A DNA stretch of 64,000 bases, from NCBI RefSeq assembly GCF_027557445.1, contig NZ_CP106841.1, positions 916,001 to 980,000 of the forward strand. The letters are read 5' to 3'. The translations under genes were made by a program, and so were the position numbers. Below are positions 13,273-20,930 of this stretch, piece by piece. How positions within the stretch are numbered: position 1 is the stretch's first letter; the number at the start of each line of letters is the position of its first letter. A model generated the notes under the pieces. That model saw nothing but the letters and a program-made list of their open reading frames with translations. It made no database searches and had not been told where the DNA came from. This stretch comes from Paenalcaligenes faecalis. Its GTDB lineage: Bacteria > Pseudomonadota > Gammaproteobacteria > Burkholderiales > Burkholderiaceae_B.

Positions 13273-14091
13273 TTACAGCGCTTTGCCTGTTTGTACCACC
13301 ATGTCTAGTTCATAGGCCTGTGTTGCGCTGCCAGCAGGGGCATTTTTAATGTCATAGCGTAAGGTGCGAATGACAGAGTGAACACCATCCTGATGTGTAA
13401 AGCCTTCGATCGCATTGGGTTGAAATAGAACCCATTCACCTACCGCTGATTGGATACCACTGGAGTCAAAGTTGACCTCTCTGACCTTTAGGCAGTTATT
13501 GCCGCTTTGAGGACAAATCTCGGTCTGGGGCGCTATCTCTAAAAAGACAGTTTCGGCTTTGGAACCGTATTTAGTCTCATTCGTTTGCTCGCCCTGTAAA
13601 CGCCATTTATCGCCATTTTCAAAATGAAGAGTTAGCACAGGAGCAGGAGCATCCGGTTGTGTCTGGTTGGTAGCGGCTAGACTCCAGTCCGTGGCCGTAG
13701 GCAGGAGTTTAGCGACAGTCTGTTCGTATTGCATGAGCTCTGGGTCATTACACATACGCATGGTGCCAGCCACCTGACTAAAATCAATATCACGTTCGGT
13801 CAATTGATAGCCTGCCATCATGTTATTGCACAGGTTTTGAATGGCAACACGATTTTCAGCAAAGGTTAGTGTGAGTGGTTTGTTTGATTTGCTAGAAGTC
13901 CAAGCAGGTTCTGTATTGCCATCGGCTTTAATCGTACTAACTAAATTCCAATGGTAGGCCTCTAGAGTTTGCTCGGGGCTCAGCGTTACCTTGGTGCCAT
14001 CATCATTCATAGTGGTAGTAGAAGGTGAGGAACATGCGGCTAGACCAGCAGTAGCCAAAATAGCGGATAGGTAAGCGAGTTTACGTTTCAT
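13273..14091 (-). CDS. META / DUF4377 domain lipoprotein
   Basis: 272 residues with a lipoprotein signal ending LAAC (C20). A META domain follows (about 45-150, with LTLTFAENRVAIQNLCNNMMAGY), then a DUF4377-like segment (about 185-270: CLKVREVNF, the motif surrounding EGFTHQDGV, and LRYDI). META (HslJ-like) proteins are envelope proteins linked to stress or novobiocin tolerance in E. coli; DUF4377 has no known function. The region just before the ATG is not a normal leader: within about 40 bases it contains the end hairpin of the iscB element, and I see no Shine-Dalgarno sequence. The gene is complete, but its expression signals have been displaced. Confidence 0.82.
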   Translation of the reverse strand: MKRKLAYLSAILATAGLAACSSPSTTTMNDDGTKVTLSPEQTLEAYHWNLVSTIKADGNTEPAWTSSKSNKPLTLTFAENRVAIQNLCNNMMAGYQLTERDIDFSQVAGTMRMCNDPELMQYEQTVAKLLPTATDWSLAATNQTQPDAPAPVLTLHFENGDKWRLQGEQTNETKYGSKAETVFLEIAPQTEICPQSGNNCLKVREVNFDSSGIQSAVGEWVLFQPNAIEGFTHQDGVHSVIRTLRYDIKNAPAGSATQAYELDMVVQTGKAL

Positions 14092-14094
14092 CTA

Positions 14095-15825
14095 AATTGT
14101 GCGAGATACCCCGTCATTTATGGCGGGGAGGGATAGCACGGGTCACGTAGTGACCCCCTTTGTTCTCGCGTCTCCTAAAAGTTAGAAGCTATCTATTCGG
14201 GTTGAGTATCCGTAGCCATCGCTACGTTGAATAAGGGTGCAGTAACGGTGGCTAATGCCTTGAACCAAACCCACTGCGGATTGAATGTTAAAGCTTCCTG
14301 AGGCTCTAACGGCAACGCGACCAATATACGCGCCAACCTTCTTGCCTTTCGTGACTATCGCTTTCACCATGTCACCCGTCTGAAAGCCGTGGATATTTTT
14401 TTGCCGCGTTAAATAGCCTCGCGGGAAGCCAAAACGATTAAGGCGTGTGCGTTGATAACTACCACGCCCGGTGGCTTTAATCACTAACGTCGGTTTTTGC
14501 CAATGCTCTACAAAATCCACTTCGCCCACGCACACCGCATCTAAGGCATGTGTCTTTGGTATAACGAGCCGTGAGCGATTGCACTTCGTTAAGCCGCCAG
14601 ACCCGGTGCGAACGGGTAGTCCTGTTGCCTTGAGCGCGTTAAGCAACTTCCATCGCGTGGCGTTAACGGCAGCGGCATCCCGTAACGGGCGTTTCGCTTG
14701 GGCTTGAATCTTGGTTAAGCGTTTGGGGTCTTTGGCCAAGAATTGGGTGATGTCTTGCGCGGCTTTCTTTAGGTTGCAGGGTGCACACGCGAGCGTTAAG
14801 TTACTGACGCGGTTCGAGCCGCCTCGCGCTTTGGGGTGAATGTGTTCGATTTGCAGCGGCACCTCTGATACATCGCAATAGGCACATTGTCGATGCCACT
14901 TTTCCAATAAATACTCGCGCACCTCATAGCCTGCTAATTCGCCTTGCTGGTACTCCACGCCCGCTATCTCGGGGTTTTCAAGCTGCTGCATATCAAATCG
15001 AACCAGCTCTTGTGCAAGGTGCGTAATTGGTGCCACGTTTCGTATTCGCGCAACCCACGATAACGTAGTATCAATTCGATGCTGCAAGCTCGGTGCGAGC
15101 CACCCTTCGCCTTTGTTTTTTCGATTAAGGAACCGAGGCGCACGGTAACGTAAGTTGGCACTACGGCGGCGACGACGCATTTGACGTCTCGCTGTTAAGG
15201 TGTGGCTAATTTGAAACCCACGATGTATCAACTCGAACAGGTTTAATACGTGCGCCGTAGCTGTTATCTTGCCCGTTTCCGCGTTAACGGTATCGTTATT
15301 GCGAACTAACGCCAGCCCTGATGTTTTACTGCCAGGGTCAATCTTAAGCTCTAACGGTTGAAGCTCGCTTTGCGCCACCTCTCTGTCAATCAAGCGAATC
15401 GTAAAGGGGATCAATCGATGCACCCTTGCTCGCCCTCGCGCCAATAAAAGTCGTGCTCGCTTCTCGGAGCACGGCATCAACGGCGCTTGGCGTCTATCTA
15501 TTACAAAAACAGCCATGGCTATTTTCTCCTAATTTTGCCCGTAAGGGCCTTGTGACGGAGGCTTACGCCTCGCTCCCCTCGACAAGGTTGATGTCCCGCT
15601 AGATGCCTAAAGCACCCTGCGGTAGCCCGTTTCGTGCCTACCCGAGGCGTGTCTGCGGCTACCGCTTACAGCGCTTGGAACTGAGGAAGCATTCCAAGGT
15701 GCGTCTTGAACGTAACACCAACGTAGCGCTACAACAGTGCTGAGTCTGGTCAATCTAGGCAAGCGCAGAACGAATCTGGCATGCCTCGCCTTTAGGGCGG
15801 GGTTATTGACAGCATTTCCTTTTGT
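14095..15825 (-). mobile_element. IscB-type IS200/IS605-related element (no tnpA)
   Basis: Element boundaries are approximate. On the lipoprotein side the end carries a hairpin at 14116-14135 (CCCCGTCAT/ATGGCGGGG) and a perfect palindrome GGGTCAC-GTA-GTGACCC near 14140-14156. On the other side a matching GC hairpin lies at 15784-15802 around TTTAG. Between them lie only iscB and its presumed omega-RNA. Subterminal hairpins without terminal inverted repeats or obvious target duplication are typical of IS200/IS605-type transposons. With no tnpA it would have to be moved by a TnpA encoded elsewhere. Its GC content is visibly higher than that of the AT-rich DNA beyond 15830. Confidence 0.75.
14182..15516 (-). 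CDS. iscB: IscB RNA-guided DNA endonuclease (RRXRR, split RuvC, HNH)
   Basis: 444 residues. The N-terminal domain VFVIDRRQAPLMPCSEKRARLLLARGRARV is the PLMP/RRXRR domain. RuvC-I has D60 in KIDPGSKTSG; an Arg-rich bridge helix follows (about 109-123, RRQMRRRRRS). RuvC-II has E170 in QELVRFD. An HNH domain is inserted with zinc cysteines C211/C214 and C244/C247 and the IEHIHP motif (H225, H227). RuvC-III has THALDAV (H323, D326), and a C-terminal target-interacting domain starts near 345. All catalytic residues are intact. Known of the family: IscB, the ancestor of Cas9, nicks or cuts DNA guided by an omega-RNA encoded just upstream. Here 280 bases of stem-rich DNA lie upstream. AGGAG precedes the ATG. 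Confidence 0.95.
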   Translation of the reverse strand: MAVFVIDRRQAPLMPCSEKRARLLLARGRARVHRLIPFTIRLIDREVAQSELQPLELKIDPGSKTSGLALVRNNDTVNAETGKITATAHVLNLFELIHRGFQISHTLTARRQMRRRRRSANLRYRAPRFLNRKNKGEGWLAPSLQHRIDTTLSWVARIRNVAPITHLAQELVRFDMQQLENPEIAGVEYQQGELAGYEVREYLLEKWHRQCAYCDVSEVPLQIEHIHPKARGGSNRVSNLTLACAPCNLKKAAQDITQFLAKDPKRLTKIQAQAKRPLRDAAAVNATRWKLLNALKATGLPVRTGSGGLTKCNRSRLVIPKTHALDAVCVGEVDFVEHWQKPTLVIKATGRGSYQRTRLNRFGFPRGYLTRQKNIHGFQTGDMVKAIVTKGKKVGAYIGRVAVRASGSFNIQSAVGLVQGISHRYCTLIQRSDGYGYSTRIDSF

Positions 15826-15834
15826 GATTTTCAT
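15517..15834 (-). ncRNA. Candidate IscB omega-RNA with 5' guide
   Basis: Stem-loops fill this non-coding stretch: the end hairpin at 15784-15802; CTTGGAA/TTCCAAG at 15674-15698; a perfect 9-bp stem GCGGTAGCC/GGCTACCGC at 15619-15665 enclosing a second stem (CGTGCCT/AGGCGTG); a stem CCTTGT/ACAAGG at 15548-15587 enclosing GAGGC/GCCTC; and GCCC-GTAA-GGGC at 15537-15548. Known for IscB: the omega-RNA lies upstream of the nuclease with the guide at its 5' end, taken from flanking DNA. The predicted guide is therefore the host sequence just above about 15803. Ends and processing are inferred. Confidence 0.7.
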
Positions 15835-18716: not shown

Positions 18717-19145
18717 TTAGAACCCAACTGTCATTTGAGCCCAATAACGGCGGCCATCATAGACTGCACCGTAGTCGGCATAATCCATTTTTTTATCAAA
18801 GATATTGTAGATGCCGACGCCGAGGCGTAGATGTTTGTTGAGCTGATAGCCCATCCCTACATCGACAAAAGTAAATGACGGAGTGCCTTCACTCATAGAG
18901 GTGCGACTGAGGTAATCCGAGCTTTTGCCTCGGTAGTTGACGCGAGTCCAGAGGTTAAGGCTTTCGTTATAATCCCAGTCTACGGTGCTATTAAACATGT
19001 GCTTTGGCATTTTATTTAATGGTCGACCCTCAAATTCGCCGCTGCGCTGCTTGGAGTGGGTAAAGGTATAGTTGCTGTTCACGCGTAGCTGATCTGTAAT
19101 GTCCCAAGTGGCAACGGCTTCAATACCTCGCATCACAGCTTTATC
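18717..19145 (-). pseudogene. TonB-dependent siderophore receptor, C-terminal fragment
   Basis: About 142 codons of the last barrel strands of a FepA/CirA-like outer-membrane receptor: DKAVMRGIEAVATWDI, NSNYTFTHSKQRSGEFEGRPL, PKHMFNSTVDWDYNESLNLWTRVNYRGKS, the NIFDKKM turn, and a terminal Phe (QMTVGF) typical of outer-membrane insertion. Receptor-like sequence continues upstream only to about 19145 and then hits a stop at the tnpB element. This is the 3' half of a gene whose other part is at 20487-20930. Confidence 0.85.
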
Positions 19146-19280: not shown

Positions 19281-20450
19281 GTGAAACAAGTGGCGTATAA
19301 ATACCGATTTTACCCCACCCAAGAGCAAGCTGCATTCTTGGCGCATACCTTTGGTTGTGTTCGTTTCACCTATAACGCCGCGCTTGGTTTCTCTAAAGAA
19401 CAATACGAGTTAGGCAATAAAACCAATTACCACGATTGGAACAACCACCTCAATCAGCTTAAACGCAGTCCAAAGCACGCTTGGTTGAAAGACGTCTCTA
19501 GCGTGCCGTTGCAGCAGTCGCTTCGCCATTTGCAAAAAGCTTTCCGTTCCTTTTTTGCCTCAGGGTTTGGTTACCCGAAATTTAAGCGTAAACAGGCAAA
19601 ACAATCGGCCAGCTATATGAACAACGCCTTTAAGTGGGACGCTAAGGCGCTATCGCTCACGTTGGCGAAAATGAAACAGCCATTAAAAATCCGCTGGTCG
19701 CGTTTGTTCACGGGAACACCTAGCTCATTGACCGTGTCTAAAACAAAAACAGGCAAATATTTTGTGTCTATTTTAGTAAAAGAAGCGGTTCAACTGCTGC
19801 CCGAGGTGAGTAAAACGGTGGGCGTGGATGTGGGCATTGCGGAGTTAGCGGTTTGTTCTGATGACCAGCGGTTTACTAACCCGCGTTTAACGAATAAATA
19901 CGCTAAAAAACTGGCTAAAGCACAGCGAAAACTAGCCAAGAAAGTCAAAGGCTCGGCGAATTTTAGTAAGCAACAACGCGTGGTGGCGAAAATCCACGAA
20001 AAGATCGCGAATTGCCGTCATGATGTGACCCATAAAATGACGAGAAAACTTATAAACGAAAATCAAGTGATAAGTATTGAGTCATTAAAGGTCAAAAACA
20101 TGGTGAAAAACCGTAAATTGGCGAAACAATTGCATGATGTCAACTTCGGTGAAATAGTAAGGCAATTGAGCTACAAGGCAGACTGGTATGGAAGAACGCT
20201 TTCTGCCATTAGTCAGTGGTTCCCTTCTAGCAAAACCTGTAGTCAATGTGGGGAGCTCTACCAAGGCCAGTGGTCACTCGCCATTCGGCGGTGGACCTGC
20301 CCTTGTGGGGCGACGCATGACCGCGATCTGAATGCCGCAATCAACATTCACAAAGAAGGGCTGCGACTCGTGAGGGAACCGGTTTGTGGCGGCAGGGAGT
20401 GCCGACACACGAAACGCTTGGAAGAGGTTTTAGAAGACGGGCGTGATTGA
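19281..20450 (+). CDS. tnpB: TnpB RNA-guided nuclease (IS605 OrfB)
   Basis: 389 residues starting GTG after a strong AGGAG site. The N-terminal OrfB helix-turn-helix region begins YKYRFYPTQEQ; the RuvC core follows. Catalytic residues are all present: D183 in TVGVDVGI, E267 in VISIESLKV and the Asp of HDRDLNAA (D347/D349). The C-terminal zinc ribbon has C320, C323, C340 and C342 (CSQCG, CPCG). Known of the family: TnpB is the ancestor of Cas12 and cuts DNA next to a short TAM, guided by an RNA from the element's right end. Intact residues suggest activity. The gene lies in reverse orientation to the receptor it interrupts. Confidence 0.96.
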   Translation: MKQVAYKYRFYPTQEQAAFLAHTFGCVRFTYNAALGFSKEQYELGNKTNYHDWNNHLNQLKRSPKHAWLKDVSSVPLQQSLRHLQKAFRSFFASGFGYPKFKRKQAKQSASYMNNAFKWDAKALSLTLAKMKQPLKIRWSRLFTGTPSSLTVSKTKTGKYFVSILVKEAVQLLPEVSKTVGVDVGIAELAVCSDDQRFTNPRLTNKYAKKLAKAQRKLAKKVKGSANFSKQQRVVAKIHEKIANCRHDVTHKMTRKLINENQVISIESLKVKNMVKNRKLAKQLHDVNFGEIVRQLSYKADWYGRTLSAISQWFPSSKTCSQCGELYQGQWSLAIRRWTCPCGATHDRDLNAAINIHKEGLRLVREPVCGGRECRHTKRLEEVLEDGRD

Positions 20451-20507
20451 ATATCACGGCGCCTAAACCGATGACAACAAGAATCACCTTGCTTTAGCTG
20501 GGTGAGC
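20330..20507 (+). ncRNA. Candidate TnpB right-end RNA (omega-RNA) with flanking guide
   Basis: For TnpB elements the guide RNA overlaps the 3' end of tnpB and runs through the right end into flanking DNA. Here the segment includes the hairpin CGTGAT/ATCACG at 20443-20459 and the tail through ACAACAAGAATCAC, after which receptor-gene DNA from about 20488 would act as the guide. Boundaries are inferred, not seen directly. Confidence 0.5.
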
Positions 20508-20930
20508 TTCAAATTGATTGCCACTATCATTTAGTTTTTCTTTAAGATATTGCAACCCAAAGGTGGCTATGTGTTGATCAGTCGCTAAGCTCCATTGTGT
20601 ATTAGCCTCCAGATTTTTAATTTTCATATTACGACCTGGGTTGTTGGTATGGTCGGCCTGAATGAAGCTTTCTGAACGGAATTGGCCCCAGCGGCCATGG
20701 TGAGTTAGTGCATAGTTATTTCTGCTGTATTTGCTTTCTGACAAGGTATTAGGCCTACACACGCCTTTGCTGCATGTTTCAGCAATGCTGTTTTTGCCCG
20801 GAGTAGAAGTGCGGTCTTGTAGGGTCCGACCGATTTCTGCAATCACATCATGATCTGAATTGGGGCTAAGGGTGAATTTGACGGTGCCTGAGCGAGTGTC
20901 TTGTTTATATGAATGCAAATAGTAATGATA
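20487..20930 (-). pseudogene. TonB-dependent siderophore receptor, internal barrel fragment
   Basis: About 145 codons of mid-barrel sequence (GTVKFTLSPNSDHDVIAEIGRTLQDR, the CRPNTLSESKYSRNNYALTHHGRWG stretch, and LATDQHIATFGLQYLKEKLND). It has no signal peptide, no TonB box and no plug domain, which should precede it by 300 or more residues. The frame opens directly at a Fur-box promoter, so the 5' part of the gene has been deleted. Compared with FepA, some 150 residues are also missing between this fragment and the C-terminal one. It cannot make a working receptor. Confidence 0.82.

Follow-up and report, generated by a model that had tools for sequence, protein, structure and literature searches.

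An IscB element of Paenalcaligenes faecalis lies between the ribosome-binding region and the start codon of a lipoprotein gene, with many related copies at gene starts

How does the gene for a small RNA-guided DNA cutter come to stand directly ahead of the start codon of a lipoprotein gene in Paenalcaligenes faecalis, and is the element that carries it intact, mobile, and placed there by more than chance? The locus lies in a stretch of 64,000 nucleotides (contig NZ_CP106841.1, positions 916,001 to 980,000; hereafter the window, to which coordinates refer), and the element occupies 14092..15810 on the minus strand, 1,719 bp, as defined by alignment of the copies in the same genome and by empty sites in congeners. 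The copy alignment gives a common left end, GTCAA (at 15810, minus strand, in the window), and a right end that is TTTAG (at 14092, minus strand) or a variant of it. It is an IS200/IS605-type element and a further member of the known IscB (ISC, OMEGA) family, and the protein that it encodes is a predicted small nuclease, guided by RNA and related to Cas9. A preliminary description, made from the letters of the window, had noted an intact iscB gene preceded by an omega-RNA, and the observation is confirmed and the reading supported by the analyses described here.

The iscB gene (14182..15516, minus strand, 444 aa) is open throughout, as had been claimed, and its product matches the NCBIfam guided_IscB profile (NF040563) with 444.5 bits (cut-off 175), the Pfam RRXRR profile (PF14239) with 226.8 bits, and the Pfam HNH profile (PF01844) at residues 211–252. 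The protein has an RRXRR/PLMP N-terminus, RuvC residues D60, E170, H323 and D326, and HNH residues H225 and H227, all six at the positions first given, and neither they nor the four cysteines checked vary among 18 copies (17 from this genome and one from a congener); position 224 is either E or D. The protein matches solved IscB chains, of which TbaIscB is the best (3.2e-34) and is distant, and the presence of an HNH domain sets it apart from IsrB, of which the absence of HNH is the mark. The 153 pairs formed by the same 18 copies average 0.0435 for dN and 0.3792 for dS (dN/dS ~0.12), which shows lasting purifying selection on iscB across copies. RNA-guided double-strand cleavage by the window IscB at ATGA is a prediction, with the TAM read from the flanks of the copies. 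A phylum-wide search with this protein matched at least 150 of 398 genomes, and among the matches listed one in G324 has 67% identity to it; the listed matches outside G324 and the P. faecalis genome are weak and nearly all confined to approximately the HNH stretch, and we have made no use of them. We also note that in a search of 13 genomes, Microseira wollei NIES-4236 (G419, 10.6 Mb) had the most matches to the window IscB, 49, many of them broken or partial.

The preliminary description had proposed a covariance search of the region preceding the gene, and this finds the Rfam HEARO model (RF02033) directly upstream of iscB, over its full length (15567..15810, minus strand; model positions 1-211 of 211), with 87.9 bits against a curated gathering score of 83. 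The omega-RNA evolves as a structure: in 21 aligned sequences (12 from this genome and nine from others), 31 of the 45 consensus pairs show compensatory change. The minimum-energy fold contains the 9-bp stem and nested hairpin that had been pointed out, and this fold is only mildly better than those of shuffled sequences (z -2.01, with 7 of 200 shuffles equally good); the covariance match and the compensatory changes are the stronger support for the RNA. HEARO also scores above the cut-off in 15 of 16 further loci scanned (14 foreign, and one broken copy from this genome), and L133 is the one without a match. The window RNA is one base short in a hairpin kept by the 11 other copies from this genome in the alignment, a defect that recurs at the same hairpin in a broken copy (L044), and among the 21 HEARO scores in the genome only one is lower; for these reasons we regard the window element as intact-looking, yet not pristine.

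The P. faecalis genome (2.73 Mb, two contigs) contains 17 full-length IscB copies, 90–100% identical to the window protein and with iscB intact, and eight further partial matches that we interpret as four broken copies; the 21 HEARO matches are co-located with these 21 copies. Of seven broken copies from this genome and others judged by open-frame lengths, approximately three have in-frame deletions, which is not above chance. The broken copy at trpF belongs to a different lineage, and another (L049:1514-3053) lies within an apparent flagellin gene beside TnpB and TnpA genes.

Downstream of the window element is ATGA (14088..14091, minus strand), the putative TAM and target and also the start codon of a host gene, a META/DUF4377 lipoprotein-like ORF of 272 aa (13273..14091, minus strand) that begins at the element edge. 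ATGA abuts the right end in all 21 copies (17/17 intact, 4/4 broken), with A as the fifth base (ATGAA) in 18, and the 21 left flanks have no common motif; we therefore infer that the guide is the left flank and that the TAM is ATGA. The natural guide would be the 16 nt at 15811..15826 (minus strand), which in the empty site form the lipoprotein gene's ribosome-binding region, the length of 16 nt being adopted from the IscB/TnpB literature. The earlier suggestion that the guide could be read from the flank holds, although the interval proposed for it, 15803-15825, includes eight bases of the scaffold and is corrected here. A genome search with the last 12 bases of the window's guide, the one guide of 21 used, followed by ATGA and with up to three mismatches, gave 37 sites, compared to 17 for a reversed control. 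The exact 12-nt guide end is met solely at the left end of the element itself, and there it is followed by GTCA instead of ATGA.

Joined-flank queries for nine of the 14 loci at gene starts (see below) were searched in 11 genomes of the genus, including P. faecalis itself, and 13 matching congener stretches were aligned. All 13 alignments cross the junction, one of them (L168) with a one-base gap there, and in 11 of them the subject continues with ATGA, the exceptions being L189 with ATGC and L181 with GTGA. The window's own empty site, in G002, reads CATAAGGACATGCT up to the junction and ATGAAACGC beyond it, with 65% identity over the aligned stretch, and at the broken rfbC copy the last 30 nt of the left flank and the first 8 nt of the right are identical to an empty site in G006. 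From these congener sites the window element has evidently inserted with the lipoprotein gene's Shine-Dalgarno on one side and its ATG exactly at the other edge, with no target duplication. The absence of duplication and the fixed short motif, as seen in the 13 empty-site alignments and in ATGA at 21 of 21 junctions, are those of an IS200/IS605-type insertion.

The position of the window element at a gene start is shared by 14 of the 21 copies (11/17 intact, 3/4 broken), at which ATGA opens an ORF of at least 165 codons in the orientation of the element and the upstream open frame in the empty site is at most 96 nt, so that the junctions look start-like; the other seven are L002, L005, L007, L012, L014, L015, and the flagellin copy. 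As background we used the element-free window with a crude gene caller, in which 447 of 569 ATGA sites are in genes, 95 are intergenic, and 27 (4.7%) are start-like. With the copies treated as independent, the 14/21 start-like junctions have P 2.5e-14 against all window ATGA sites and P 1.6e-5 against non-genic sites, and the 12/18 start-like ATGAA junctions have P 1.4e-9 and 0.003 respectively. A Pfam search with the products at 11 of the 14 start sites gave domains of the META, NlpA lipoprotein, nucleoside deoxyribosyltransferase, TctC, ABC transporter, metallophosphatase, DctP, isocitrate/isopropylmalate dehydrogenase, PilZ, and ELFV dehydrogenase kinds, with no match for the one at L009, and by eye the ORFs behind broken copies are trpF, rfbC, and a gene for a solute-binding protein. 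Anti-Shine-Dalgarno pairing of -4 kcal/mol or better is available in the last 22 nt of the left flank at 11 of the 14 start sites and at none of the seven others. This apparent docking at start codons is the new part of our account, a strong pattern in this genome that is repeated in Giesbergeria and in part elsewhere. Our literature search, whose reach stopped short of the founding HEARO/ISC/OMEGA papers, found no report of IscB insertion at start codons. The HEARO paper is said to describe ATGA or GTGA beside insertions, and one IscB reportedly has an ATGA TAM, so the ATGA motif itself may be known.

In other genera, the clearest parallel is Giesbergeria sp. STCSWMC_12, where eight IscB copies (five full and three broken) all abut an ATGA that opens an ORF of 148 to at least 462 codons; seven of the eight products have Pfam matches (T2SSG, RuvA, SPOR, FabH-type, Ddl, carbonic-anhydrase, and Clp/AAA) and one (L142) has none. 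An OsmC-domain gene follows the congener copy (L111), and behind a Tepidimonas copy (L125) there is a galE-like gene; near the congener copy there is also an Rfam Betaproteobacteria_toxic_sRNA match (L111:77-139, minus strand; 65.5 bits against 50). Altogether, 61 loci from other genomes were read, and in 16 of these the boundary was set by the fixed proteobacterial pattern; among the other 45 it was set by eye in 23, and 22 were dropped. ATGA opens an ORF of at least 100 codons in 14 of the 16 proteobacterial elements, with short ORFs only at L082 and L114, and nine of the 16 pass a stricter rule that also limits the upstream open frame to 100 nt (P 1e-8 against all ATGA sites and 0.003 against non-genic sites, with our own window as the background, which is lower than the 23 start-like sites of 255 in the longer loci of those foreign genomes). 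In the 23 elements placed by eye, mostly cyanobacterial, 13 open an ORF of at least 100 codons, a count that the by-eye placing favours and for which we therefore give no P value; Pfam matched nine of ten products hand-picked from these elements.

The right end may have a role in translation of the host gene. In the window (14092..14181, minus strand) it contains AGGAG (14176-14172), a basal stem formed by GCGAGA (14169-14164) and TCTCGC (14106-14101), and two enclosed hairpins (14156-14140 and 14128-14109), followed by 9 nt to the ATG. The preliminary description had placed GC hairpins at the element ends, and for the right end both sequence and folds agree with it. The same order follows the iscB stop in the copies of this genome (AGGAG or GGAG, GCGAGA, two hairpins, TCTCGC, 9-11 nt, and the host ATG), the exact six-base stem being present in 20 of 21 and lacking in L012. 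No Shine-Dalgarno stands at normal spacing in these right ends, the best pairing lying 15-16 nt from the ATG, and for this reason we propose that the stem bridges the distance. Support for such bridging is mixed. Energy folds recover the basal stem in only part of the copies, and several (e.g. L013, L014, L016) prefer other pairings. Among the 16 foreign proteobacterial elements, the Shine-Dalgarno-plus-stem layout is present in seven, with other matching stem bases (GCGGGA/TCCCGC, CGAGAA/TTCTCG), and missing in nine, the eight Giesbergeria copies and L114. In seven of the eight Giesbergeria copies and in L061, the stop codon of the iscB frame (TG/A, split at the element edge) overlaps the host ATG. 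In 15 of the 23 by-eye elements there is pairing of -8 kcal/mol or better that ends 3-7 nt before the start; the Shine-Dalgarno-like bases of the cyanobacterial elements, as seen by eye, can also pair with an upstream C-rich arm, and so may be structural. Many right ends carry Shine-Dalgarno-like motifs, and that they restore translation of the host gene is a proposal.

Whether the elements still move is doubtful, because the genome has few TnpA genes (two of the Y1 type and one remnant) and an IscB-like right-end hairpin lies only beside the remnant. With dnaA at 2.637 Mb, and with GC skew in the examined loci positive to 1.18 Mb (except at L051) and negative from 1.50 Mb, 15 of the 21 copies face replication head-on (one-sided P 0.039): one replichore has 10 of its 11 copies so oriented and the other 5 of its 10. 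This bias would fit insertion into the lagging strand, although it is weak and absent in one replichore. Other mobile features of the genome may be recorded here. The second contig (L053, 14,591 bases) is plasmid-like, with a Y1 TnpA, a hairpin that resembles the IscB right end with no accompanying IscB gene, and ORFs that by eye encode a TetR-type regulator and a tetracycline-efflux-like transporter. A TnpB gene of the IS605 type (19281-20450, plus strand) lies in the window between two TonB-dependent receptor-like pieces, one (18717-19136) with a Pfam barrel match and the other (20484-20918) with no Pfam match. There are eight copies of this TnpB in the genome with 99-100% identity, a sign of recent spread, and seven of a second TnpB at 36%.

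The overall explanation in which we have good confidence, reading from sequence comparisons, is an IscB element with a flank-derived guide that would home through an ATGA TAM, often at gene starts. A transcript of the left end would carry approximately 16 nt of the left flank as guide, IscB with this omega-RNA would cut an allele that lacks the element, in which the TAM ATGA comes directly after the guide sequence, and the element would be restored there by repair from an occupied copy. The occupied allele would be spared, the guide sequence in it being followed by GTCA. Movement to new sites is probably the work of a Y1 TnpA that is supplied in trans and acts at ATGA (opposite strand TCAT). 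Gene starts would be the favoured or the surviving landing sites of this IscB family, and the guide would therefore often be a ribosome-binding region and the TAM often a start codon. A wider reading, which we offer tentatively and regard as somewhat doubtful, is that HEARO-group IscB elements are start-codon docking elements that insert between the Shine-Dalgarno and an ATG or GTG start, and in which the TAM is this start, the guide is the ribosome-binding region, and the right end brings a new translation start. This could take any of three forms: a Shine-Dalgarno that the basal stem brings near the ATG, as in P. faecalis, Tepidimonas, Macromonas, and other cases; a Shine-Dalgarno in direct position, as in many cyanobacterial copies; or a stop of the iscB frame that is completed by the target and overlaps the host start, TG/A-TG (Giesbergeria).

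There are several plausible alternatives to consider. To that wider docking reading we oppose an account by survivorship with an even chance of being right, in which TnpA inserts at any ATGA, insertions within genes are lost, those at gene starts persist since they leave the downstream frame whole, and the right end does nothing for translation. Insertions within genes do exist and are few (the flagellin copy, and L002 and L015 as judged by open frames), and the lack of a normally spaced Shine-Dalgarno in the P. faecalis right ends, the nine of 16 foreign proteobacterial elements without the Shine-Dalgarno-plus-stem layout, and the folds that prefer other pairings in several copies all sit well with a right end that is inert. 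However, starts are enriched even relative to non-genic ATGA (14/21, P 1.6e-5; for ATGAA 12/18, P 0.003). Moreover, all eight Giesbergeria copies lie at ORFs of at least 148 codons, including RuvA, FabH-type, and Ddl genes that would be hard to silence.

The remaining alternatives concern what the copies now do. The window copy could be a dying relic with an intact-looking gene, a damaged omega-RNA, and its transposase gone, as its one-base hairpin deletion, its low HEARO rank, the reduction of the TnpA beside a matching end hairpin to a remnant, and the four copies already broken might suggest. We think this unlikely, given that 17 copies have an intact iscB, with dN/dS ~0.12, that the window RNA still scores above the HEARO cut-off, and that the IscB of any copy could presumably use the omega-RNA of any other. 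That the copies have been recruited to regulate, by RNA guidance, genes whose ribosome-binding regions are similar seems highly improbable: the guides are often ribosome-binding regions, and near matches to the guide end with ATGA exceed the reversed control (37 against 17 at up to three mismatches), but all of the catalytic residues are kept, unlike in nuclease-dead regulators, and the excess, obtained with one of 21 guides, is expected anyway from shared Shine-Dalgarno-ATG sequence.

The homing IscB element that we favour has clear relatives. It resembles the IscB/HEARO nucleases TbaIscB, OgeuIscB, and HEARO MG35-1 in its RRXRR, RuvC, and HNH segments and in the HEARO RNA ahead of the gene. 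HEARO systems, in the available portions of PMC9755519, have the guide at the 5' end of the RNA and few TnpA partners, and both features are shared here; unlike the portions of the IscB/HEARO descriptions compared, the present case has as many as 21 copies in a genome of small size and shows docking at start codons. The IsrB protein DtIsrB, in the part of PMC9581776 that describes its TAM, uses NTGA/TTGA and is active at ATGA, similar to the ATGA here, although IsrB lacks the HNH domain that the window protein has. For ISDra2 TnpB, the sections of PMC8612924 concerned describe insertion without duplication by a short motif that equals the TAM, a guide from the flank, and a proposed return to the donor joint by repair, and the window element shares with it and with IS200/IS605 elements the duplication-free insertion at a putative TAM motif and the predicted flank-derived guide. 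The geometry is inverted, with the motif 5' and the guide at the 3' end of the RNA in TnpB, whereas the window IscB element has a 3' motif and a 5' guide; the TnpB copies of the P. faecalis genome are elements separate from the IscB copies.

Each of the 17 full-length copies preserves its own guide and a record of its target in its flanks, and the target motif, the guide, and the basis of self-protection can thus be read from one genome and are directly testable, with a window IscB of 444 aa that has a simple predicted TAM. If the docking reading is true, the host could bear insertions even ahead of important genes, and the high copy number would be explained in part. If the right ends act as ribosome-binding sites, these would be homing RNA-guided nucleases with a built-in means of harmless insertion before important genes, and such built-in translation rescue would bear on how elements of this kind persist.
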